A stretch of 49,551 bases of DNA from Cytophagales bacterium (lineage in GTDB: Bacteria > Bacteroidota > Bacteroidia > Cytophagales > VRUD01): the NCBI GenBank assembly GCA_019456305.1, contig VRUD01000018.1:1-49551 (forward strand), in the 5' to 3' direction. Both the position numbers and the translations under genes were made by a program. The stretch's first letter is position 1. Every line of letters begins with the position of its first letter. Positions 4,941 to 49,551 of this stretch are shown here, in pieces. Below the pieces are notes generated by a model. It worked only from the letters and a program-made list of their open reading frames with translations, was not told the DNA's origin and did not search any database.

Positions 4941-4956
4941 AAAAGTTGTCTTTTTT

Positions 4957-5067
4957 TGCCACTAAATCTCTAAAGCGCTAAATCCCACTAAAGAAATTGA
5001 CAATTGACAGTAGACAATTGACAATATGCCTGCTGTCAATTGTCAATTGTCTACTGATTTAGTGGCA
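4957..5067. repeat. Nested inverted repeat between tdh and the metalloprotease gene
   Basis: Two inverted repeats are nested. The outer arms TGCCACTAAATC (4957-4968) and GATTTAGTGGCA (5056-5067) are a perfect 12-bp match. The inner arms CAGTAGACAATTGACA (5008-5023) and TGTCAATTGTCTACTG (5041-5056) are a perfect 16-bp match. The outer motif recurs inside the MITE-like element at 14295-14389. A variant of the inner motif is used as coding sequence in the metalloprotease signal peptide at 7646-7680. The hairpin could end transcription of the metalloprotease gene, whose stop codon is only 7 bp away. Confidence 0.75.
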
Positions 5068-5073
5068 TAATTT

Positions 5074-7722
5074 TTACTTCTTTATATCCAACGCTTTTTT
5101 AATTAAAAACAAAATATGTTCACGATGAGCTTTTGTTACCGTATTTGTAAATTCGGCAGCAGATAACGTAACTTTGATCTGATTTAAATGAAAAAGGGCT
5201 AAGGATTGTGATATATTGTCGTATTGAGATTTCTTGCCACTGGTACCCGGGATGATGTTAATTAGGCGTTCAATGTATTCAATCTGCAGATTTTGCCTGA
5301 AAGAATTCACTACAGTGCCCTTGTCATCTCTAAATATGGCTTTTGTAAGATCATACATATATTCAGATAGCTTGTATTTGTTGCCATATAACTCAGAGTC
5401 AGTTATTCTTTTTAGTACATTCGGATGCAAAAGATGGTTTAAGATATCTTTCTGAATATTTAAGATCCTTTCGTGGATCCTGGGGTCTTCATTTTTTCCG
5501 AAATGATTGAACCCCCTCCTTTGTATTTGCAGATAATTATATAAATCAGCGGGGAAATTGAATGCATCTATACCAAATGCATATTTTGACAAAGCATTCA
5601 TAGCTCTTTTTTGCTCTTCATAGCTTACCGGTGTAAAGGGTTTGGAAGCGCCCTGCTGTCCTACCATAGCACGGTCAATATATACACCTCCTATATATCT
5701 TGAGATCACTTTCGCAGCAACATAATATTCGCGTGTCAGGATCAGGTAAGCGCTTCTCAATTCATGATAAGACTGCCCCTCAGTACTGTATTTTTCTTTA
5801 AGGTTTGAGAAAATGTTGTTGACTAATTTTATCCGGTCTATGGCATAGGTAATAGCATCACCAGACATATCCCCGATCATTATTTTTGGATCTATACCGG
5901 AACCAGGGCTGCGCATATCATCAGCATCATTGCCAAATGCCAGCATCGGATCAGTAGAGCGTGACAGGATACTATCTAATCGCTGCTTTTCTGCTTCCGG
6001 GTCATCTAATGCTTCAGAATAACCGTATAGAATCGCCCATTTGTCATAGGGTCCTGGTTTAACATCATAATAAAGCCCCTGTTTCTCTTTATCAAGGGCA
6101 ATATTCACAGGTGAATAATCCATTACAGAACCGGTAAGCCCGATCTCTAATGTTAAATTTCTATCGTTTATTTGTTGGGGTGAATGAAGCTGGCTGGCTT
6201 TCATGTTATGGTTCAGGCCAAAAGTATGGCCCAATTCATGCAAAATCAGGGCATATAATGACTGTTTAACCAATTCTTTATTTTCCATTTCTGACAGATC
6301 ATTCGCCTTCAGTGCACAGATCCCGAATAGCTTTTCCTGATGTAAGAAATCACCAAAAGAGCAGTATGCCAGCCCTCCTTTAACTCCGGGGATAATATCT
6401 TCCCCTTCCTGACCTGTGGTGGAGAGGGGGCCAGGGGGCGAGGTGGACACGCTTTCAAAAAGTTTTTCATACTTGAAACGATTGGTCATATAAATAAATT
6501 CCAGCATAATATCAGCGCCCAGGATCTGCCCTGTTCTCGGGTTGACAAAGCTGGGGCCGTATCCTCCAAAGGGAGGATTGGGTGATGAAGTCCATCTCAG
6601 AACATTATACCTGATATCACCCGCATCCCAGGTTGCATCATCAGGCTGGATCTTTACCTCGATTGCATTTAAAAAGCCTGCTGCTTCAAAAGCTTCGTTC
6701 CATGCAAGGGCAGCTTCCTTAATTATATCTCTGAACTCGTTCGGTGTTGTTTTTTCAATCCACCAAACTATCGGTTCAACCGGTACAGAGAGGTCTGCTT
6801 TTTTACGCTTTTTTTCCAGATGCCACCTGTGGACCAGGTCCCTGTAAGGTGTGGCGCTCACTGAGGTCATATTATCCACCTGACTGGTGAAATATCCCAC
6901 ACGCGGATCATCAAATCTGGGTACAAAGTTGTTTTGAGGCACTTCTAAGAGACTATGCTGGATTTTAACACTCACAAAGCGAGCATCCGTAACAGCTTTA
7001 CGACCGTAATTTACAGGATAAAAATTTTCATAAACGTATTCTACAACGATATCGGTATTCATTGGATAGTTTTTTATCCTGACATATTTGGTTTTTCCCT
7101 TGCTCAGCTTACCTAAATTAAAGCGTGTAGCCGCTTGTTTGTCTTTTGGATTTGGAGAAGGCTTGACCTGCTGCATACTCTCTTTGAGAAAAATATCATC
7201 TGCTTTGATCAGAAACTCTGTTTTGTTCTTGTTTTCTCCAACAATTATTTGATTTGCAAGAATAGCCCTGTTAATATTGGCGTCAGCAGCCCGGCTTAAT
7301 GGATTTTTTTCATCAAAATAATAGCCGGTATTTTCCAAAATAAATTCGATCTTGTTAAAGTACTTTTTTATCCTGAATATTTTTGCTCCCCTGTAAGCCC
7401 CCCTGAAATGCCGTGCATCCAGAATACCTTCCACGGTGTGGCTGAAATAAATATACTCCTTATTTAATTCATCTTTATGAATTAACATATAGAGTATTCC
7501 ATTTGTCGTGTCCTGATACAACGTAAACAGACCTTCATATTTCCTGCATGGCTTTGTTATCGATTTTATCGATTTTATTGTTTCCTTCTTTTTATTTTTG
7601 GCAGCTTCAATGATCTGTTCTTTGATTGATTTCTGGGCAAATGAAACAGTAGACAGCAGACAGTTGACAGTTGACAATAAAACCAATGCTACAATAACAG
7701 ATAAAATTCTTTTATTGACCAT
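5074..7722 (-). CDS. Secreted zinc metalloprotease, metzincin type (DUF5117 family)
   Basis: This 882-residue exported protein belongs to the large Bacteroidota metalloproteases with DUF5117/DUF5118-type regions. The zinc site is a full metzincin motif, HELGHTFGLNH, with ligands H495, H499 and H505 and catalytic E496. The Met-turn region follows at about residue 525 (GSVMDYSPVNIA). Start choice: translation can be extended 32 codons upstream, but ATG at 7722 (MVNKRILSVIVALV) begins a normal signal peptide and lies just downstream of a good promoter. Two in-frame repeat insertions are visible: one forms the signal-peptide core (LLSTVNCLLSTVS), and one adds TSPPGPLSTTGQEGED at about residues 423-441 in a surface region. 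The protein should act in the periplasm or outside the cell; its substrate is unknown. Confidence 0.88.
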   Translation of the reverse strand: MVNKRILSVIVALVLLSTVNCLLSTVSFAQKSIKEQIIEAAKNKKKETIKSIKSITKPCRKYEGLFTLYQDTTNGILYMLIHKDELNKEYIYFSHTVEGILDARHFRGAYRGAKIFRIKKYFNKIEFILENTGYYFDEKNPLSRAADANINRAILANQIIVGENKNKTEFLIKADDIFLKESMQQVKPSPNPKDKQAATRFNLGKLSKGKTKYVRIKNYPMNTDIVVEYVYENFYPVNYGRKAVTDARFVSVKIQHSLLEVPQNNFVPRFDDPRVGYFTSQVDNMTSVSATPYRDLVHRWHLEKKRKKADLSVPVEPIVWWIEKTTPNEFRDIIKEAALAWNEAFEAAGFLNAIEVKIQPDDATWDAGDIRYNVLRWTSSPNPPFGGYGPSFVNPRTGQILGADIMLEFIYMTNRFKYEKLFESVSTSPPGPLSTTGQEGEDIIPGVKGGLAYCSFGDFLHQEKLFGICALKANDLSEMENKELVKQSLYALILHELGHTFGLNHNMKASQLHSPQQINDRNLTLEIGLTGSVMDYSPVNIALDKEKQGLYYDVKPGPYDKWAILYGYSEALDDPEAEKQRLDSILSRSTDPMLAFGNDADDMRSPGSGIDPKIMIGDMSGDAITYAIDRIKLVNNIFSNLKEKYSTEGQSYHELRSAYLILTREYYVAAKVISRYIGGVYIDRAMVGQQGASKPFTPVSYEEQKRAMNALSKYAFGIDAFNFPADLYNYLQIQRRGFNHFGKNEDPRIHERILNIQKDILNHLLHPNVLKRITDSELYGNKYKLSEYMYDLTKAIFRDDKGTVVNSFRQNLQIEYIERLINIIPGTSGKKSQYDNISQSLALFHLNQIKVTLSAAEFTNTVTKAHREHILFLIKKALDIKK
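6399..6452. repeat. In-frame G/C-rich repeat in the metalloprotease gene
   Basis: A G/C-rich segment with GGAGAGGGGGCCAGGGGGCG at its core interrupts an otherwise AT-rich gene. On the coding strand it reads CGCCCCCTGGCCCCCTCTCC and is translated TSPPGPLSTTGQEGED. It separates family-like sequence ending FKYEKLFES from sequence starting IIPGVKGGLAYCSFGD. The abrupt change of base composition and low-complexity translation suggest an inserted dispersed repeat. Confidence 0.6.
7646..7680. repeat. ACAGT/TTGACAG repeat used as signal-peptide core
   Basis: Tandem copies of the motif ACAGTAGACAGCAGACAGTT / GACAGTTGACAATA lie inside the 5' end of the metalloprotease gene. On the minus strand they read TTGTCAACTGTCAACTGTC and are translated as the hydrophobic LLSTVNCLLSTVS. 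The same family of repeats appears outside genes at 5000-5056 and about 21828-21855. Confidence 0.6.
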
Positions 7723-8751: not shown

Positions 8752-11700
8752 ATGAAAAAATCAAATCTCTTCCACGCAGCAGTTGCCATTGCAACTTTCT
8801 ACTTTCTAACTTTACAAACTTTCAACTGCTTTGCACAGCCCCCCCCCACCATCTCCTCCTTCACCCCTTCATCGGGTGCAGTAGGCACATTGGTAACCAT
8901 TACAGGCACTAATCTAAGCATCCCCACGGCTTTTACCATTGGCGGAGCTACTGCCATAGAGGTATCCAATATCGGAACCACATTAGTAGGCTTGGTAATG
9001 CCCGGCGCTGTTACAGGCGCTGTATCTGTTACCACAGCAGGAGGCACAGCAATAAGTGTCAGTAATTTTACGGTTACACCAACACCTTACCCTGGCTTAC
9101 AGCAGGGAAATAAATTAGTCGGCACAGGGGCTGTGGGCGCTGCACGACAAGGTTGGTCTGTTTCCATTTCATCCGATGGGAATACGGCTATCGTGGGAGG
9201 ATTAGGTGATAGTAGCTGGGCAGGAGCAGCCTGGGTTTATACCCGCACCGGCGGAGTGTGGACACAGCAGGGAAGTAAATTGGTCGGCACAGGGGCTGCG
9301 GGCGCTGCATTTCAAGGCATCTCTGTTTCCATTTCATCCGATGGGAATACGGCTATCGTGGGAGGATATCAAGATAATTCTGCTGCAGGAGCTGTATGGG
9401 TTTATACCCGCTCCGGCGGAGTGTGGACACAGCAGGGAAGTAAATTGGTAGGCACAGGGGCTGTGGGCGGTGCAGAGCAAGGCGCCTCTGTTTCCATTTC
9501 ATCCGATGGGAATACGGCTATCGTGGGAGGAGATGGTGATAGTAGCTTTGCAGGAGCAGCATGGGTTTATACCCGCTCCGGCGGCGTGTGGACACAGCAG
9601 GGAAGTAAATTGGTCGGCACAGGGGCTGTGAGCTCTAACGTTCAACAAGGCGCCTCTGTTTCCATTTCATCCGATGGGAATACGGCTATCGTGGGAGGAA
9701 TTGGTGATAGTAGCGGTATAGGAGCAGCATGGGTTTATACCCGCACCGGCGGAGTGTGGACCCAGCAGGGAAGTAAATTGGTCGGCACAGGGGCTGTGGG
9801 CGCTGCAAATCAAGGCATCTCTGTTTCCATTTCATCCGATGGGAATACGGCTATTGTGGGAGGACGGTTTGATAATAGCAGTGCAGGAGCAGCATGGGTT
9901 TATACCCGCTCCGGTGGAGTATGGACACAGCAAGGTAGTAAATTGGTCGGCGCAGGTGCTGCGGGCGCTGCATATCAAGGCATCTCTGTTTCCATTTCAT
10001 CCGATGGGAATACGGCTATCGTGGGAGGACATCGTGATAGTACCAATGCAGGAGCAGCGTGGGTTTATACCCGCTCCGGCAGTGTGTGGACACAGCAAGG
10101 AAGTAAATTGGTCGGCACAGGGGCTGTTGGTTCACTCGTTTATCAAGGTTACTCTGTTTCCATTTCATCCGATGGGAATACGGCTATCGTGGGAGGATAT
10201 CGTGATAATACCGATACAGGAGCAGCATGGGTTTATAGCGTCTGTACTGTTACGGGTACTCCTGCATCCGCAGCAATTTGTTCAGGAGACAGCATTTTAA
10301 TCAATGGAACATACAGAAGCGCAGCGGGAACTTATACCGATACGCTCACAGCGGTGAATGGCTGCGACAGCATCATTGCAACCACTTTAATGCTAAATTC
10401 AAACCCTGTTATCATTTCATTTACCGTAACCTCTATTGGCTGTACACCGCTTAATAATACGCTATGTGTTACTACAACCGGTGCCGATACACTCTTTTGG
10501 TATTTTGGGGATATGACTTATGATACAACCTTATCAGATACCTGTCTCACCCATATTTATACCAATGTTACCGCCAGTCCTGTTTTTTACAATCCAACCA
10601 TAATTATAGAGAATGTTTTTGGCTGCAGGGATACAGCTTCAGCAACAGTTACGGTTTTACCACCGGTAACTGCTGCATTTACTGCTTCGCCAGATACGGC
10701 CGGCTGTCATCCTTTTACGGTTGATTTTCAAAATTCCTCAACAGGTGCGGATAATGGCTACTTGTGGGATTTTGGAGACGGAAGTCCGGCAGTTAATGAT
10801 ACAAATCCTACCCATATATTTACCAATACAGCAAGCCTGATTGATAGTATTTATACCGTTAGATTGATCGCTACCGGTTTTCCGATCTGTAAAGATACTG
10901 CTGTACGACAAATATTAGTACATCCAATACCAACAGCAAGCTATACAGTAAGCGATACTGTTGGCTGTGTAGGCGATACTGCCTTTTCTACCAATACAAG
11001 TACCGGAGCGACTTCATACCTGTGGCAGGTAGATGGTATTACTTTAAGTACAGATACAAATGCTTTTATAATAGCGCCTATACCCGGCACTTATGCATTC
11101 AGGTTAATAGCATCAGATGGTGTATGCAGCGATACCTCAGCAGAGACAATTATAACGGTCTATGCTTTACCCACTGCAAGTATTACAGGCACAGATCTAA
11201 GCTGTACCGCAGCTAATGATGGGGCTGCTGACCTGACAGCTTCCGGTGGCGCCCCGCTTTCATACAACTGGTCTAACGGAGATACTACTGAGGATATCAT
11301 GGGTTTGTCTGTTGGTACCTACACGGTGATCGTTACCGATACGAATGGCTGCACAGCAACTGACAGTGTTATGATCTCAATTACCGGTAACTTAATAGTT
11401 GTCATAACAAGCATAATTGATGCTTCATGTATTGAACTATGTGATGGCGTAGCTTCTGCATTTATAACCGCAGGAACAGGAACTTACCAGTGGAATGATC
11501 CTTCAGGGCAAACAAATCCCATAGCTAATAACCTCTGTACAGGTGAATATAACGTAGTTGTAACTGATTCTGCCGGCTGTACTGATACAGCCACTGCAAT
11601 AGTTGGGTCACTCCCTGAATTGACCCTGGCCATCACTCCAACAAATTCGACTTGCGGCAACACAGATGGCAGTGCAACGGTAAATGTGTCCAATGGCGCT

Positions 11701-13377: not shown

Positions 13378-13450
13378 GGCGTCCCGGGTAATTAGTATAT
13401 CGTTTCACTAAAATAATACACCAAAAATAATTACTATCCTCAATTATTCA

Positions 13451-13972
13451 TAAAATCCCAATTTCAAAATCCCAAGTTCAAAATAAATCCCAATTTCAAA
13501 ATCCCAAGCTCAAAATAAATCCCAAATGAAAAATCCCAAAAACAAAACCACCAATCACGATTGTCTGCCTCCTGATGACTTATTAATGATAGTGCTTAGA
13601 ATACTTATGATCTCTTCGGATTCCTGAATATCAGCAGCAACTTCATTGGGATTCAGGTAAGTACCACTTATTGTCCGCAGAAAAAACCTGACTTCCTTAG
13701 CCTCCTTCCTGGATATCCCCACTTTGTTTATGAAATCCTTTTTAGTCAAAGTCCCATCGGCTTCTTCAAAATTAGCGCCTACAGAAGTTCCCGAAGCGCC
13801 CAATTGTCCACGTATTCTGGCACATTCAGGATATTTGGGAAGCAATTTACATATTTCGAGCATCCTTTTTCCAAATAGCAATAATCGCTCTCTCAAATCA
13901 TACGGCTTTTTGGGATTTTTCATTTGGGATTTATTTTGGATTTTGAGCTTTGGATTTGGGATTTTATTTGTT
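13451..13972. mobile_element. Inverted-repeat element carrying a four-helix-bundle gene
   Basis: A perfect 31-bp inverted repeat (13512-13542 and 13907-13937; core AAATCCCAAATGAAAAATCC) encloses a single gene. Outside it the similarity continues imperfectly: on the left (13451-13511) as degenerate 14-bp units of AAAATCCCAAGTTC type, on the right to about 13972. The start codon and first codons of the enclosed gene (MKNPKK) are encoded by the right arm itself. No transposase is present. It looks like a small non-autonomous cassette, but its mobility is inferred. Confidence 0.5.
13555..13923 (-). CDS. Four-helix-bundle protein (23S rRNA intervening-sequence protein family)
   Basis: A 122-residue cytoplasmic protein with the signature of the S23/IVP four-helix-bundle family: an N-terminal helix with LRERLLLFGKRMLEICK, the conserved turn RGQLGASGTSVGANFEEA, then DFINKVGISRKEAKEVRFFL and a last helix. 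IVP genes are found in 23S rRNA intervening sequences, and relatives (Avd) serve in diversity-generating retroelements. Here there is no rRNA and no reverse transcriptase nearby. The gene fills an inverted-repeat element, and its first six codons lie in the repeat arm. It points towards the adhesin gene, which ends 178 bp away. Its molecular role is unknown. Confidence 0.85.
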   Translation of the reverse strand: MKNPKKPYDLRERLLLFGKRMLEICKLLPKYPECARIRGQLGASGTSVGANFEEADGTLTKKDFINKVGISRKEAKEVRFFLRTISGTYLNPNEVAADIQESEEIISILSTIINKSSGGRQS

Positions 13973-14036
13973 TCATCTTAAAGTTTAGGAATAATATAGG
14001 TTAAATGTTATCCTTTTTATGAAACGCTACACTAGG

Positions 14037-14261: not shown

Positions 14262-14414
14262 TGAGTCCACTCTAAAAAGTCCGAAAAATAAAAATGCCAC
14301 TAAATCACCAAAGCACTAAATCCCACAAAACCCTGAAAATCAATTAGTTAATTTTTAGTGGGATTTAGTGTTTTTGTGCTTTTGTGGCAAAAAAGACTTT
14401 TTAGAGTGGACTCA
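14262..14414. mobile_element. MITE-like element with two nested inverted repeats
   Basis: Perfect 20-bp terminal inverted repeats, TGAGTCCACTCTAAAAAGTC (14262-14281) and its complement (14395-14414), bound a 153-bp segment with no coding capacity. Inside are imperfect 32-bp arms, 14295-14326 and 14358-14389, beginning TGCCACTAAATC and ending TTTTGTGGCA. The whole segment could fold into one long hairpin. A second copy of one terminal repeat with two changes stands alone at 40596-40615. It lies 32 bp downstream of the recA stop codon and could end recA transcription. Confidence 0.7.
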
Positions 14415-29565: not shown

Positions 29566-30279
29566 TTGAACACTTTTATAAAAAACCTAACACGCTCCTT
29601 TAAAAATTCCCTGCCAGGTGAAGTTGCCCAGTACAAGATGGCGCCTTATGGACGTTTATTAAAAGAAGAGGCATTAAAGCTCAATGCAAATCCCAGGCTT
29701 AGTGCTGTACTGATATTACTTTATCCTGTTAAAGGAGCAAAGCGCATAGAGCATAGCCCCGCCAGTTGGAGGGGTAAAGAGCATCACTCAAAGGGCTCTG
29801 CGTTCAGCATATATACAGTTTTGATTTTACGAACATCTGATCATGGAGTCCACAGCGGACAGGTAAGCTTTCCGGGAGGGAAAAAAGAAGAAAGTGACAG
29901 ATCGTTGGAGGATACAGCATTAAGGGAAGCAGAGGAGGAGATTGGCATCAAGAAAAATGATGTAAAAGTAATAGGTCCCTTGTCAGAGCTTTATATACCT
30001 ACCAGCGGGTTTTTAGTACAACCTTTTGTTGGATACTTAAATAAAAAACCCTTATTTCATCCCGACAAGAATGAAGTGCAAAAATTGATTGAAGTGCCGC
30101 TTGATCTTATTATGGATGATGGTATTGTAAAAGTAACCACCATTCTAAAATCAAAAACCCGAAATCAAAAATCCGAAATTCGAATACCTTATTTTGACAT
30201 ACATGGAGAAGTAGTCTGGGGAGCTACGGCTATGATGTTGAGTGAATTGAAAGAGATTTTAGTGGGTATAGGGATATAA
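29566..30279 (+). CDS. Nudix hydrolase (CoA pyrophosphatase-like)
   Basis: A 237-residue Nudix protein. The Nudix helix reads REAEEEIGI (R120-I128), preceded by HSGQVSFPGGKKEESD, the pattern of CoA/ADP-ribose-type pyrophosphatases (NudL family). The start is TTG at 29566: a TAA lies four codons upstream, no ATG fits, and homologous sequence (FIKNLTRSFKNSLPGEVAQYK) begins well before the first internal ATG. A TATATTTG box lies at 29525-29532. Two in-frame repeats interrupt the domain: about residues 57-81 (AKRIEHSPASWRGKEHHSKG), between two strands that are normally adjacent, and KSKTRNQKSEIR near residue 198. Both should form surface loops; activity is probable because all catalytic residues are intact. 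Confidence 0.85.
   Translation: MNTFIKNLTRSFKNSLPGEVAQYKMAPYGRLLKEEALKLNANPRLSAVLILLYPVKGAKRIEHSPASWRGKEHHSKGSAFSIYTVLILRTSDHGVHSGQVSFPGGKKEESDRSLEDTALREAEEEIGIKKNDVKVIGPLSELYIPTSGFLVQPFVGYLNKKPLFHPDKNEVQKLIEVPLDLIMDDGIVKVTTILKSKTRNQKSEIRIPYFDIHGEVVWGATAMMLSELKEILVGIGI
29734..29808. repeat. In-frame palindromic insertion in the Nudix gene
   Basis: Outer arms AGCGCATAGAGC (29741-29752) and GGCTCTGCG (29794-29802) pair imperfectly. Inner arms CCCCGCC and GGAGGGG flank AGTT (29757-29774). The 75 bases are translated without a stop (AKRIEHSPASWRGKEHHSKG). They separate ILLYPV from YTVLIL, which are contiguous in ordinary members of the family. Confidence 0.6.
30147..30183. repeat. AAATC-rich in-frame repeat in the Nudix gene
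   Basis: Tandem units AAATCAAAAACCCG and AAATCAAAAATCCG with a partial third copy are translated LKSKTRNQKSEIR, just before PYFDIHGEVVWG. The units resemble the AAAATCCCAA-type repeats around the four-helix-bundle gene at 13451-13972. Confidence 0.5.
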
Positions 30280-46100: not shown

Positions 46101-49100
46101 GTGAAATTACTACCTGTAACCTTGTTAATGGATGGATCAATGATGTAAACCTGGTTTTTGATGATATTGAGTGGAGAACTGACGATGGAGGTACGTTTTC
46201 AAGTAATACCGGGCCTACTATTGACCACGCACCCGGCACTTCTACCGGTAACTATCTCTACCTGGAAGCTTCAGGAAGCTGTAATACCAGATCAGCACAT
46301 CTGATCACACCCTGTATTGACCTGACCGCTGCAACCCTGCCGGAGCTCAGCTTTTGGTATCACATGTATGGCGCTGATATGGGGGAATTGCATGTTGATA
46401 TCCTGCAGGGAGGTACGTGGAGCAATGATATTATGATCCCGGTTTCAGGTGACCAGGGAGATAGCTGGAAAGAGGCAAAGGTGAACCTTGTGCCTTACAC
46501 AGGGCAGATCATTAATATTCGTTTTCGTGGAATCACCGGATCAGGTTACCAAAGCGATATGGCAATTGATGATATTTCCATAATAGAATCAACGCTTGCT
46601 CCGGTTGCTGATTTTGTTGCTGATAAAACTTTTATTTGCAGTGGGGAAACAGTGATATTCAGCGACCTGAGTGTGAATGTACCGAACGCCTGGTCATGGG
46701 TTATTTCGCCTGGTACTATAAACTTTGTAAACGGAACCTCGGCAAATTCACAAAATCCCCAGGTGGAATTTGTAACCACTGGAGCTTATGATGTAACGCT
46801 TATAGTTATCAATACTTTCGGAAATGATACACTCACCAGGTCTTCATATATAAAAGCAGGTATAGGGCCATCTTCTGCATTTGTGGAAGATTTTGAATCT
46901 TTTGAACCTTGCGCTACCTCATTCAGTTGTAGCCAAAATATTATATGTGACCTCTCAAAGGGTTGGGTCAATGAAGAAAACCTGGTAATTGATGATCTGG
47001 ATTGGAGGGTTGATGAAGGGGGAACAGCTTCAAGTAATACAGGTCCATCTACTGATCACGCACCCGGCACTATTTCCGGAAACTATATTTATGTAGAAGC
47101 CTCTGGCACCGCAGGTTGTAATGAGAATAAAACAGCACTTCTGGTAACACCATGCATAGACCTGAGTGGTTCAGTTCAACCACAACTCAGCTTTTGGTAC
47201 CATATGTATGGCGCCAGTATGGGGGAATTGCACCTGGATATCCTGGATTCAGGTATATGGACCAACGATATTATGATACCTCTTATCGGTAACAAGGGAA
47301 ATAGCTGGCAGCAGGCATTGGTTGATCTTACCGTTTACACCGGGCAGATGACCAACCTGCGTTTCCGGGGGATTACCGGTTTGGGTATAACCAGCGACAT
47401 GGCCATTGATGATATTGTAATATTTGAAGGACAAGCGCCACCGATCCCTAATTTTATTGCCGATAATACCAATACCTGTATTGGCAAGACGGTTACCTTC
47501 ACTGACGTGAGTTTGAATGCACCTAATTCCTGGTCATGGAGCTTCTCGCCCGGCACTGTGAACTTTGTAAACGCAACAACTGCCAATTCACAAAATCCAC
47601 AGGTGCAGTTCACCGCTTCAGGTTTTTATGATGTTACGCTTACAACTTCCAATGCATACGGTAGTAACCCTGTTACCAAAACCTCTTATATCATAGTAGA
47701 TATAGGGGCAACGATCCCGTTTGCGGAGGGCTTTGAAAGCGGCATCTTCCCGCCTGTTGAATGGAATATTGTTGATCCGGGTGGATCGAGAACCTGGGAT
47801 GTGAGAACCAATGTTACAGGCAGTGATGGCGCTTTTACTACAACAGCATATATCAACAACTTCTCTTACAACAATACCGGTGCAGAAGATGAGCTGATCA
47901 TTGAACCTGTAGATCTGACAGGTATGTCTTCTGCAATGATGACTTTTGATATAGCTTATGCAGCCTATAGTTCTACATTATTTGATGGCCTGCGCATTGA
48001 TATATCCACAGATTGCGGGGTTACATATACCCCAACAGGTTATAATAAGTTTGGCCCTGCTCTTGAAACGGCACCGCCTACCACCAGTAGTTGGTTTCCT
48101 TCTGGTCCGAGCGAGTGGCGCAATGATACGGTTGATCTTTCTGCTTATATTAATACTATTGTAAGAATCAAATTCGTTAACATCAACGGCTATGGCAATA
48201 ACCTTTTTATTGATAATGTAAATTTAGATCTTCCATCACTCTTTGTATCCATCTCATCACCAGCCGGTGCCACCTGTAACGGTGGTTGTGACGGATGGGC
48301 AGTTGCAACTGTTACAGGAGATTTTCCACCTTATACATATCTATGGAATGATAGTTTAGCACAAACCAACGATACGGCAACAGGTCTTTGTCCAGGCGTG
48401 TATTCAGTAATGGTAGTTGATTCGATATCAGATACTGTGTCAGCAACGGTTACTATTTCAGAACCTGCTGCTCTTTCCGGAATTATTTCAACTACCCTGG
48501 AATCATGTGCTGGTTGTAATGATGGCACAATTTCAGTGGTTGCCAGCGGTGAATCCGGTAATTACACTTACTTATGGGATGATCCGGCTAATCAAACTAC
48601 AGCCACGGCTGATAGCCTCACAGCGGGTGTTTACAGTGTAACTGTTACAGACACTGTTTGTGGTACCAGTATTGTTCTCACAGATACCATAGAAGTTGCC
48701 CCACTCTCTTTATCAATCTCAACATCAGCCGATGCTACCTGTAACGGTGGGTGCGATGGATGGGCAGTTGCAAGTGTTACAGGAGGTTTTCCACCATATA
48801 CATACCTATGGGATGATAGTACAGCACAAACTAATGATACGGCAACGGGTCTTTGTGCTGGCGTTTATTCAGTAGAGGTAATGGATACTACATCAGATAC
48901 TTTATCAGCAATGGTCATTATTGCAGAACCTGCCGCTCTTTCCGGAATTATTTCAACTACCCTGGAATCATGTGCCGGTTGTAATGATGGCACAATTTCC
49001 GTGGTCGCCAGCGGTGAATCCGGTAATTACACTTACTTATGGGATGACCCGGCTAATCAATCAACAGCTACTGCCGACAGCCTCACGGCCGGTGTTTACA

Positions 49101-49551
49101 GTGTAACTATTACAGACACTGTTTGTGGTACCAGTATTGTTCTCACAGATACCATAGAAGTTGCTCCACTCTCTGTATCCATCTCATCATCAGCCGGTGC
49201 TACCTGTAACGGTGGTTGTGACGGATGGGCAGTTGTAACTGTTTCAGGAGGTTTTCCACCTTATACATATTTATGGAATGATAGTTTAGTGCTAACCAAC
49301 GATACGGCAACAGATCTTTGTGCTGGCGTTAATTTAGTAGCAGTAATAGATACTACATCAGATACTTTATCAGCAACGGTTACTATTGCACAACCTGCTG
49401 CTCTTTCCGGAATTATTTCAACTACCCTGGAATCATGTGCCGGTTGTAATGATGGTTCGATCTCTGTAACGGTAAGCGGTGAATCCGGTAATTACACTTA
49501 CTTATGGGATGACCCGGCTAATCAATCAACAGCTACTGCCGACAGCCTCAC
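43139..49551 (+). CDS. Large secreted subtilisin-like protease, partial at the window end
   Basis: The frame is open from ATG 43139 to the window end (2137 residues, 3' end missing). It has a long basic leader, then a signal-peptide core (ALLCCLFLLPNYSNAQ, to about residue 53), a propeptide (about 55-250) and an S8 catalytic domain with D280 (LGDDGPIG), H306 (NHGDMTSG) and S476 (GGTSAAAPG). After that come a P-like beta domain (to about 690), a fibronectin III-like domain (about 762-830), two tandem MAM-plus-PKD units (about 962-1522; SFWYHMYGADMGELHVDIL), a third lectin-like domain (to about 1700) and SprB-type repeats from 1702. A T9SS sorting domain is expected beyond the window. The leader contains a palindromic repeat (SRIWSVPTKPGG). 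Confidence 0.9.
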   Translation, partial: MKNYCSKPGYQRQYLRAQKTGSRIWSVPTKPGGLCKIALLCCLFLLPNYSNAQVKQSSGKYELLLKSASVMPEENLRDFINEPDIKAGEKFEGRYFKFIQFYEIPNRDDREEIESMGIQLLNYIPHNTYAASIPENFDPGSLQELNVRSVISIEADYKIDNRLKTLPYPDWALYGDNSIDIVVQYYKNIDPTKAKKLLIERGIKIISAYDYLYLVTIRVNISEIESIASLPFISWVEPIASPSVPDDTKGRTLHRANVLDSDHALGRHYDGTGVSCALGDDGPIGPHIDYQGRVDQSNTTANTGNHGDMTSGIMMGAGNIDPTIKGMAAGAFLYVYDISGYNHILDAPSNLTNFGVVITSTSYSQGCNAGYTTNASSGDQMIRQNPSLIHVFSGGNSGNSDCGYGAGTGWGNITGGYKQGKNVIACGNLNDKDALVSSSSRGPADDGRIKPDICANGVGQLSTDDPNTYQVGGGTSAAAPGIAGVLAQLYQAYRELNSGADPESPLLKACLLNTAEDLGNPGPDFSFGWGRVNAFRAVKTLEDNRYLDSAISQGGANTHNLTVPAGAKQLRVMLYWLDYEGAPAAAKALVNDLNMQVTDPSAVVYDPWVLDPTPNPVNLNLNAVRAVDDLNNMEQVTIDNPPAGSYTITVNGFQVPQGPQKYYIVYEFPDDDVTLTYPIGGEGFVPGETELLRWDAYGSILTFLLEYSINNGASWITIGSVSAAQRYYDWTVPGVLTGEALVRVTRGAFSDVSDTTFSIIGVPQNLAIDWACPDTIQLNWDTVTGATGYEISMLGSMYMDSIGTTSADSIVVYGINPLLEYWFSVKALAPANARGRRAIAIQKNPGTFNCAIPIDAALTEIINPTGGTLQGCQDYSSVTVSIRLNNYGIDTISTIPLHYQVNGGPVVNDTFPDTLAPGSSAVHNFLSAENFSVPGNYNISAWADYPSDGNAYNDTSKTMIEVVTGTLVGLPWSEDFETFALCATTADCEITTCNLVNGWINDVNLVFDDIEWRTDDGGTFSSNTGPTIDHAPGTSTGNYLYLEASGSCNTRSAHLITPCIDLTAATLPELSFWYHMYGADMGELHVDILQGGTWSNDIMIPVSGDQGDSWKEAKVNLVPYTGQIINIRFRGITGSGYQSDMAIDDISIIESTLAPVADFVADKTFICSGETVIFSDLSVNVPNAWSWVISPGTINFVNGTSANSQNPQVEFVTTGAYDVTLIVINTFGNDTLTRSSYIKAGIGPSSAFVEDFESFEPCATSFSCSQNIICDLSKGWVNEENLVIDDLDWRVDEGGTASSNTGPSTDHAPGTISGNYIYVEASGTAGCNENKTALLVTPCIDLSGSVQPQLSFWYHMYGASMGELHLDILDSGIWTNDIMIPLIGNKGNSWQQALVDLTVYTGQMTNLRFRGITGLGITSDMAIDDIVIFEGQAPPIPNFIADNTNTCIGKTVTFTDVSLNAPNSWSWSFSPGTVNFVNATTANSQNPQVQFTASGFYDVTLTTSNAYGSNPVTKTSYIIVDIGATIPFAEGFESGIFPPVEWNIVDPGGSRTWDVRTNVTGSDGAFTTTAYINNFSYNNTGAEDELIIEPVDLTGMSSAMMTFDIAYAAYSSTLFDGLRIDISTDCGVTYTPTGYNKFGPALETAPPTTSSWFPSGPSEWRNDTVDLSAYINTIVRIKFVNINGYGNNLFIDNVNLDLPSLFVSISSPAGATCNGGCDGWAVATVTGDFPPYTYLWNDSLAQTNDTATGLCPGVYSVMVVDSISDTVSATVTISEPAALSGIISTTLESCAGCNDGTISVVASGESGNYTYLWDDPANQTTATADSLTAGVYSVTVTDTVCGTSIVLTDTIEVAPLSLSISTSADATCNGGCDGWAVASVTGGFPPYTYLWDDSTAQTNDTATGLCAGVYSVEVMDTTSDTLSAMVIIAEPAALSGIISTTLESCAGCNDGTISVVASGESGNYTYLWDDPANQSTATADSLTAGVYSVTITDTVCGTSIVLTDTIEVAPLSVSISSSAGATCNGGCDGWAVVTVSGGFPPYTYLWNDSLVLTNDTATDLCAGVNLVAVIDTTSDTLSATVTIAQPAALSGIISTTLESCAGCNDGSISVTVSGESGNYTYLWDDPANQSTATADSL
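43201..43240. repeat. Palindromic repeat in the leader of the last subtilase
   Basis: ATCCCGGAT (43201-43209) is a palindrome, and TCCCG (43218-43222) faces CGGGA (43230-43234). The G/C-rich block is translated SRIWSVPTKPGGL and lengthens the region before the hydrophobic signal core to about 37 residues, roughly three times normal. Confidence 0.5.
46022..47700 (+). repeat. Tandem duplication of an 840-bp MAM-plus-PKD unit
   Basis: Two copies of a unit start near 46022 and 46862. Shared blocks include SSNTGPxxDHAPGT, LSFWYHMYGAxMGELHxDIL, TNDIMIP-like, IxNIRFRGIT and NSQNPQV, in the same order and spacing. The copies differ at many positions, so the duplication is not recent. Confidence 0.75.
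48239..49551 (+). repeat. 465-bp tandem repeats of paired SprB modules, cut by the window end
   Basis: The codon for Ile in SIS recurs at 48251, 48716 and 49181, exactly 465 bp apart (155 codons). Each unit contains two SprB-type modules: one starting ATCNGGCDGWAV and one starting ESCAGCNDGTIS. Long stretches, for example GAATCCGGTAATTACACTTA, are identical between copies. The third copy is still running at the last base. Confidence 0.9.

Follow-up and report, generated by a model that had tools for sequence, protein, structure and literature searches.

A four-helix-bundle gene between inverted heptamer-type arms in a Cytophagales bacterium: a probable mobile hairpin cassette related to rRNA intervening sequences

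Results

Anatomy of the element

The window analysed here is positions 1 to 49,551 of contig VRUD01000018.1 (C18 below) of the Cytophagales bacterium assembly GCA_019456305.1. It carries, with recA on one side and a gene for a large secreted protein on the other, an element in which one gene of the IVP (S23, four-helix-bundle) family is enclosed by a perfect inverted repeat (Table 1). A reading of the letters without database searches (the sequence-only reading) had described this repeat as 31 bp long; it is real and measures 32 bp. Shuffling the region 60 times with its dinucleotides preserved gave perfect inverted repeats of at most 18 bp. Exactly one open reading frame (ORF) lies between the two copies, as that reading held. 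Its ATG (13921-13923) and the following 14 nt lie inside the upstream arm, which thus holds 17 coding nt, or 5 2/3 codons and not the six that had been counted. The diverged AAATCCCAA units that it placed outside the perfect repeat are also present, as three 32-nt units on one side and over 13907-13970 on the other, and further AAATCCC-type units surround the perfect core in both arms. What it had missed are the terminal inverted repeats (TIRs) of about 12 bp outside the arms and the 4-bp YTAR duplications of this family. The RNA fold of the sequence from TIR to TIR has an energy of -178.6 kcal/mol (z = -5.35, 20 shuffles).

Table 1. Features of the IVP element, in window coordinates.
Feature	Positions	Strand	Basis
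Left target duplication TTAG	13392-13395		Aligned family ends; right copy is CTAG, one mismatch
Left terminal inverted repeat TATATCGTTTCA	13396-13407	+	Conserved at ends of at least 15 genome copies
Left subterminal region ACTAAAATAATA...ATTACTATCCTCAATTATTCATAA	13408-13452		Common to C10, C52, C55, C138, C5, C48, C116
Arm downstream of gene, three 32-nt units of AAATCCC-type heptamers	13453-13548	+	Direct repeat family D1, TRF
Perfect 32-bp inverted repeat, downstream copy	13511-13542	+	Inverted-repeat search versus shuffles
IVP / S23 / four-helix-bundle gene, 122 aa	13555-13923	-	PF05635, TIGR02436, AlphaFold
Perfect 32-bp inverted repeat, upstream copy, holds start codon	13907-13938	-	Inverted-repeat search versus shuffles
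More diverged AAATCC units, upstream arm	13939-13970	-	Repeat families I1, I2
Right subterminal region TTTCATCTTAAAGTTTAGGAATAATATAGGTTAAATGTTATCCTTTT	13971-14019		Common to C10, C46, C52, C55, C62, C67, C68, C69, C138
Right terminal inverted repeat TGAAACGCTACA	14020-14031	-	Conserved family ends
Right target duplication CTAG	14032-14035		Aligned family ends

The encoded protein passes the curated thresholds of PF05635 (46.6 bits, cut-off 33.8) and TIGR02436 (61.7 bits, cut-off 24). Among the Pfam and NCBIfam profiles only IVP families matched, and there was no match to the Y1 HUH transposase. The AlphaFold model (pLDDT 92.8) has four helices, and its closest folds are 2rld (TM 0.73-0.88) and 2gsc, followed by Avd (4dwl) of the diversity-generating retroelement (DGR) of a Bordetella phage. 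The 2rld and 2gsc structures contain five chains each, and the IVP protein of X. campestris has been reported as a pentamer (PMC4990558).

Inverted arms at other IVP genes

The arm score is the complementarity of the upstream and downstream flanks of one IVP gene, compared with flanks taken from other elements. In an order-level set of 76 loci, the median score was 35.5 against 18 for mismatched pairs (Mann-Whitney p = 6e-37), and 38 loci lay above the 99th percentile of the mismatched pairs. In a GTDB set, 78 of the 80 fetched loci could be scored, with medians of 34 and 18 (p = 2e-36). None of 297 control ORFs reached a score of 35 (maximum 31). Inverted arms were also found at all eight plasmid IVP genes examined, from cyanobacteria and Riemerella, with two of the scores near the upper control range. 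PF05635 matches occur in 235 of the 296 genomes of a phylum sample.

The unit sequence is alike in both arms of one element and unlike between elements. With a relaxed, non-exact periodicity threshold, the arms are tandem arrays in which period 7 dominates (41 of 78 and 34 of 80 loci in two sets); period 8 was seen at 7 and 9 loci, and periods 5, 6 and 9-13 at 0-2. Heptamer arrays are present at 16 of 28 IVP loci of four IVP-rich relative genomes, and none was found in random 20-kb stretches from these genomes (160 kb in total). On the sense strand, AG occurs in the heptamer consensus of 66% of arrays and CT in that of 13%, and typical units are AGATATG, AGTATTG, AGTTACG and AGAAGTT, often AGA/AGT+NNNN. 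A heptamer is shared at different sites by 12% of closely related proteins versus under 1% otherwise, and heptamer turnover is rapid overall. In most relatives the upstream arm stops between 1 nt and some tens of nt short of the ATG. The idea that the arm supplies the start of translation is true in the window, but as a local accident.

Two of the cassettes lie between cas genes, one between cas10 and cmr3 on a Picosynechococcus plasmid (L284) and one between cas6 and cas4 on a Pseudanabaena plasmid (L278). CRISPR-linked "IVP" reports may reflect such insertions rather than CRISPR functions.

In the genome of the window (4.25 Mb, 159 contigs) there are 15 PF05635 matches. Reading of their flanks showed inverted arms at most of them, with a repeat unit that differs per gene (among others TAGCTGT, GTCGGCA, ACGAATG, GACAATA, ACTGGTC, GGATGCAT, CGAAATT and GCGCATG). 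Neither of the two observations that the sequence-only reading had named as refuting it was made: other IVP genes do have arms of this architecture, though of different sequence, and AAATCCC arms recur elsewhere in this genome. The IVP copies on C125 and C54 are near-identical over 167 nt and have the same arms at two different intergenic sites. Since their homology stops at the arm edge, gene and arms moved together there.

Positions in operons

Neighbours of IVP genes were called by ORF tiling, and partner genes were named from reading of their translations. Both neighbours point the same way as the IVP gene in 111 of 148 cases, and both point the opposite way in 10; for ordinary genes the corresponding shares are 45% and 13%. 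The median gaps to the neighbours are 71 and 54 nt, which places IVP genes within operons. Particular gaps are used repeatedly in different families: fadJ-fadI at 21 loci, sdhA-sdhB at 11-12, fadA-acyl-CoA dehydrogenase at 8, purC-purF at 4, mutA-mutB at 3 and carA-carB at 2. In the genome of the window, the atpF-atpH gap is used as well. In a tree of IVP proteins, rough because few columns could be used, the site groups clustered yet did not form single clades. The same tree gave 11 changes for the fad group, at least four of them forced by well-supported branches, and three for the mut group, all forced.

Empty, relic and filled sites

In Flavobacterium, the fadJ-fadI gap is empty in ten genomes, the anchors being only 10-12 nt apart (GAAACTAAGAA-ATG) with no hairpin. 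Several other genomes carry gene-less relic hairpins, and in ten an insert fills the gap from the stop codon onwards, its first heptamer often providing the TAG itself (GAAATTAGTATTAAG...). The fillers belong to two IVP lineages, with about 43% identity between and 71-96% within them, and their heptamers differ. Two lineages at one point fit repeated insertion and do not fit a single ancestral insertion. At one locus (L380), two relic heptamer hairpins stand in tandem with a duplicated fadI 5' end between them.

At purC-purF of Chryseobacterium, the fetched loci include 30 filled ones, and another 20 stretches contain either relics without a gene or remnants from which it has been deleted. Among 34 filled copies the ORF is intact in 25 and broken in 9. 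The median dN/dS among the intact ORFs is 0.056, which indicates purifying selection. Clean empty sites were sought there and rejected, since nearly all examined sites carry relic hairpins or remnants, and thus these "empty" sites are no proof of insertion.

The TIR-bounded family

A TIR search of the window's genome found 23 TATANCGTTTCA ends. Both ends are present in six elements (on C5, C10, C52, C55, C138 and C18, the window element), C71 carries an older, diverged element of the same family, and nine further ends are unpaired, most of them at the end of a contig; the family has at least 15 copies. The duplications are exact at C10 (CTAG/CTAG), C52 (TTAG/TTAG) and C55 (CTAA/CTAA). These three have both the TIRs and the 4-bp YTAR duplication of a miniature inverted-repeat transposable element (MITE) of the IS5 family, YTAR being the target of the IS5 family. 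The complete relatives of the window element are 331-416 bp long and MITE-like, having lost different internal parts of the same IVP gene; among the copies found, only that of the window has the gene intact. No full-length transposase-bearing partner with TATANCGTTTCA ends was found in the 159-contig assembly, where transposase families were not searched; all TIR matches were MITE-like, at contig ends or due to chance.

The copies here spread within a larger TIR-bounded element, most of them without the gene. The compact gene-plus-arms cassette of the sequence-only reading does spread, but here inside this larger unit. The cassette rides in an IS5-like MITE, and this accounts for its copy number in the genome.

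The C5 copy of the family (L121) has a CCCCGCACATAAAT...ATTTATGTGCGGGG hairpin inserted within one arm, and at C55 a sequence similar to this insert, ATATGTGCGGGG, abuts the element.

Other repeats and candidate systems

The window contains several other repeats. A gene-less set of nested hairpins lies at 4942-5066, with a short-loop AATTGACA heptamer hairpin within a GCCACTAAATC...GATTTAGTGGC hairpin, and nested hairpins also occur at C54. A MITE-like element adjoining recA (14262-14414) is bounded by perfect TIRs of 20 bp (TGAGTCCACTCTAAAAAGTC), with CACTAAATCACCAAAGCACTAAATCCC as its inner arms. Heptamer arrays appear to lie within or at the edge of coding sequences at 30148-30179 and 7644-7679, and likewise at L022, L024, L026 and L029. 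Large in-frame tandem repeats with periods of 165 and 465 are found in big secreted-protein-like genes (9099-10237 and 48237-49551).

Membership of the window gene in a DGR was rejected, because there is no adjacent reverse transcriptase (RT) with template and variable repeats; C18 carries no RT, and those of this genome are on contigs C17, C21 and C90. The REP/RAYT system (repetitive extragenic palindromes and their associated transposase, TnpA-REP) was rejected as the driver of IVP cassettes, since the seven Y1_Tnp genes of this genome, several with REP-like flanks, carry their own flanks. RAYT-like Y1_Tnp genes with such flanks (L162-L165) represent an independent hairpin system.

Discussion

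Comparison with known elements

The sequence-only reading had linked this gene to rRNA intervening sequences (IVSs) and to Avd, and both links hold, the second by fold. In the 23S IVS of Coxiella burnetii, in helix 45, tandem GACAGAT heptamers precede an S23p/IVP ORF; this IVS has a 28-bp terminal stem, is excised by RNase III and has a decaying ORF, and its authors gave mobility as a hypothesis only and did not generalise the heptamers (PMC4990558). In both cases the IVP ORF sits in the loop of a stem formed by terminal inverted repeats, which in the window is the 32-bp repeat with its predicted fold. In another register, GACAGAT reads AGATGAC and has the same AGA/AGT theme as the IVP arms. 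The heptamer copy number of the Coxiella IVS varies between strains, and its stem persists while the ORF decays. The IVS differs in that it lies in an rRNA helix and its excision by RNase III has been shown. The window element lies outside rRNA genes, and no fetched IVP locus matched the conserved 16S/23S motif set. The IVP cassettes are intergenic, in operons or in a TIR element, and their arm sequence is element-specific.

Avd (4dwl, 8ub7) has the same fold as IVP (TM about 0.6-0.7) and is a nucleic-acid-binding partner of an RT, but the sequence identity is about 16% and the window gene adjoins no RT, template or variable repeat. REP/RAYT systems likewise combine a small gene with hairpin-repeat flanks and many gene-less repeats in the genome, but IVP lacks the HUH domain, and its arms are long inverted heptamer arrays instead of short palindromes. 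IS5-family MITEs share the short TIRs, the 4-bp YTAR duplication, the internal deletions and the copy number with the window element, which differs in carrying an IVP cassette.

Cyanobacterial STRRs (short tandemly repeated repetitive sequences) are heptamer repeats. These, the TAACTGA repeats and the LSSRs (long simple sequence repeats) resemble the arms in being intergenic tandem 7-mers that occur in Bacteroidetes as well as cyanobacteria and are absent from some relatives; they differ in that their descriptions connect them neither with IVP genes nor with inverted pairing. MacGregor (2015) reported heptamer arrays, with TAACTGA repeats, in Beggiatoaceae, cyanobacteria and Bacteroidetes, and relatives without arrays; a transfer mechanism was not evident, and IVP is not mentioned (PMC4679880). 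For the LSSRs, that paper cites Mrazek (2007). In the open-licence literature we found no publication that connects IVP genes with inverted heptamer arms and with gaps in operons. The link of heptamer arrays to IVP genes and to inverted pairing is a new observation.

Interpretation

We think it probable that the window unit is a mobile hairpin cassette of the rRNA-IVS type with a homing-like cycle, captured here by an IS5-like MITE. In its anatomy the cassette is a long hairpin with a four-helix-bundle gene as its loop; the two arms are arrays of units of about 7 nt, inverted to one another. Anatomy and repeated insertion are shown by the sequences, and the chemistry of movement is inferred. 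A cassette of this kind would enter the stop/start gap of a transcribed operon and be expressed by read-through from the host promoter, and its transcript would fold into a stem that RNase III may trim. Selection on the IVP protein would maintain the cassette while it is active; it would then decay to a gene-less hairpin and be lost or re-enter. In the window, the IS5-like TIR element would have amplified one cassette by ordinary DNA transposition, most copies losing the gene by internal deletion. Slippage in the arrays and template switching between inverted arms may keep the arms of one element alike and the elements distinct. The IVP ring probably binds the heptamer arrays or the stem, as Avd binds nucleic acid; fold kinship, the 7-nt spacing and selection point to this role. 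Movement would be protein-assisted and probably at the RNA level. We lean to an RNA route because of co-direction, the location in operons and rRNA, and the kinship to Avd, although the first two also follow from selection for expression.

Several observations weigh against this interpretation. Selection for expression alone could explain the orientation bias and the operon position. About half of the IVP loci do not score higher for arms than the controls, and the window's own genome holds many heptamer arrays without an IVP gene. The AAATCCC unit of the window departs from the AGA/AGT theme, and heptamer and protein relatedness are weakly correlated (rho 0.08), so that cognate binding is a candidate only. 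No movement enzyme is known in the cassette. The empty sites and target duplications that the sequence-only reading had proposed to look for exist, the former at fadJ-fadI and the latter in the TIR family, but no clear target duplication is visible at operon sites such as Flavobacterium fadJ-fadI.

A second explanation, which we regard as unlikely, is that the hairpin and the IVP protein form a module that tunes expression or mRNA processing between partner genes to the benefit of the host. The low dN/dS would agree with this, and so would the co-directional use of the same gaps in many families (fadJ-fadI, sdhA-sdhB, mutA-mutB, carA-carB, and atpF-atpH in the window's genome). However, the cassettes are unevenly distributed within genera, sites that are empty, broken or reduced to relics are common, unrelated IVP lineages fill the same gap, and the window copy lies inside a multi-copy TIR element. 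It is improbable that the arms are subterminal repeats of a plain IS5-like non-autonomous transposon with the IVP gene as accidental cargo. The TIRs, the YTAR duplications and the mostly gene-less copies describe the outer shell of the window element well and explain how it spread; they do not explain the arms at IVP genes without these TIRs, found phylum-wide and on cyanobacterial plasmids, and the arm statistics contradict this as a general account. Least probable of all is that slippage first made the heptamer hairpins and IVP genes simply inserted into them: arrays without IVP genes are abundant in this genome and nested hairpins occur (4942-5066 and C54), but random stretches of IVP-rich relatives contain no arrays, the empty orthologous fadJ-fadI sites in Flavobacterium have no arms, and C125 and C54 have the same arms at two sites.

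Beyond the probable hairpin cassette of the window, a broader and more tentative proposal is possible, namely that a distinct class of mobile elements is built around IVP genes and has no nuclease, recombinase or polymerase of its own that is recognised as such. The pentameric protein might recognise 7-nt-spaced arrays at both hairpin ends and direct insertion, probably at the RNA level with an RT in trans, into gaps from stop to start codon in transcribed operons. Both the rRNA IVSs and many unexplained heptamer arrays might then be products of this process.

The IVP family is labelled functionally uncharacterized, and the literature calls the origin and mobility of rRNA IVSs unclear. The pattern described here connects rRNA IVSs with heptamer arrays and with orphan "four helix bundle" genes, some of which lie between cas genes. 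Flavobacterium fadJ-fadI and Chryseobacterium purC-purF are ready systems for direct tests. The recurring layout of gene plus arms suggests that rRNA intervening sequences are part of a far wider family of small mobile elements that has been overlooked.
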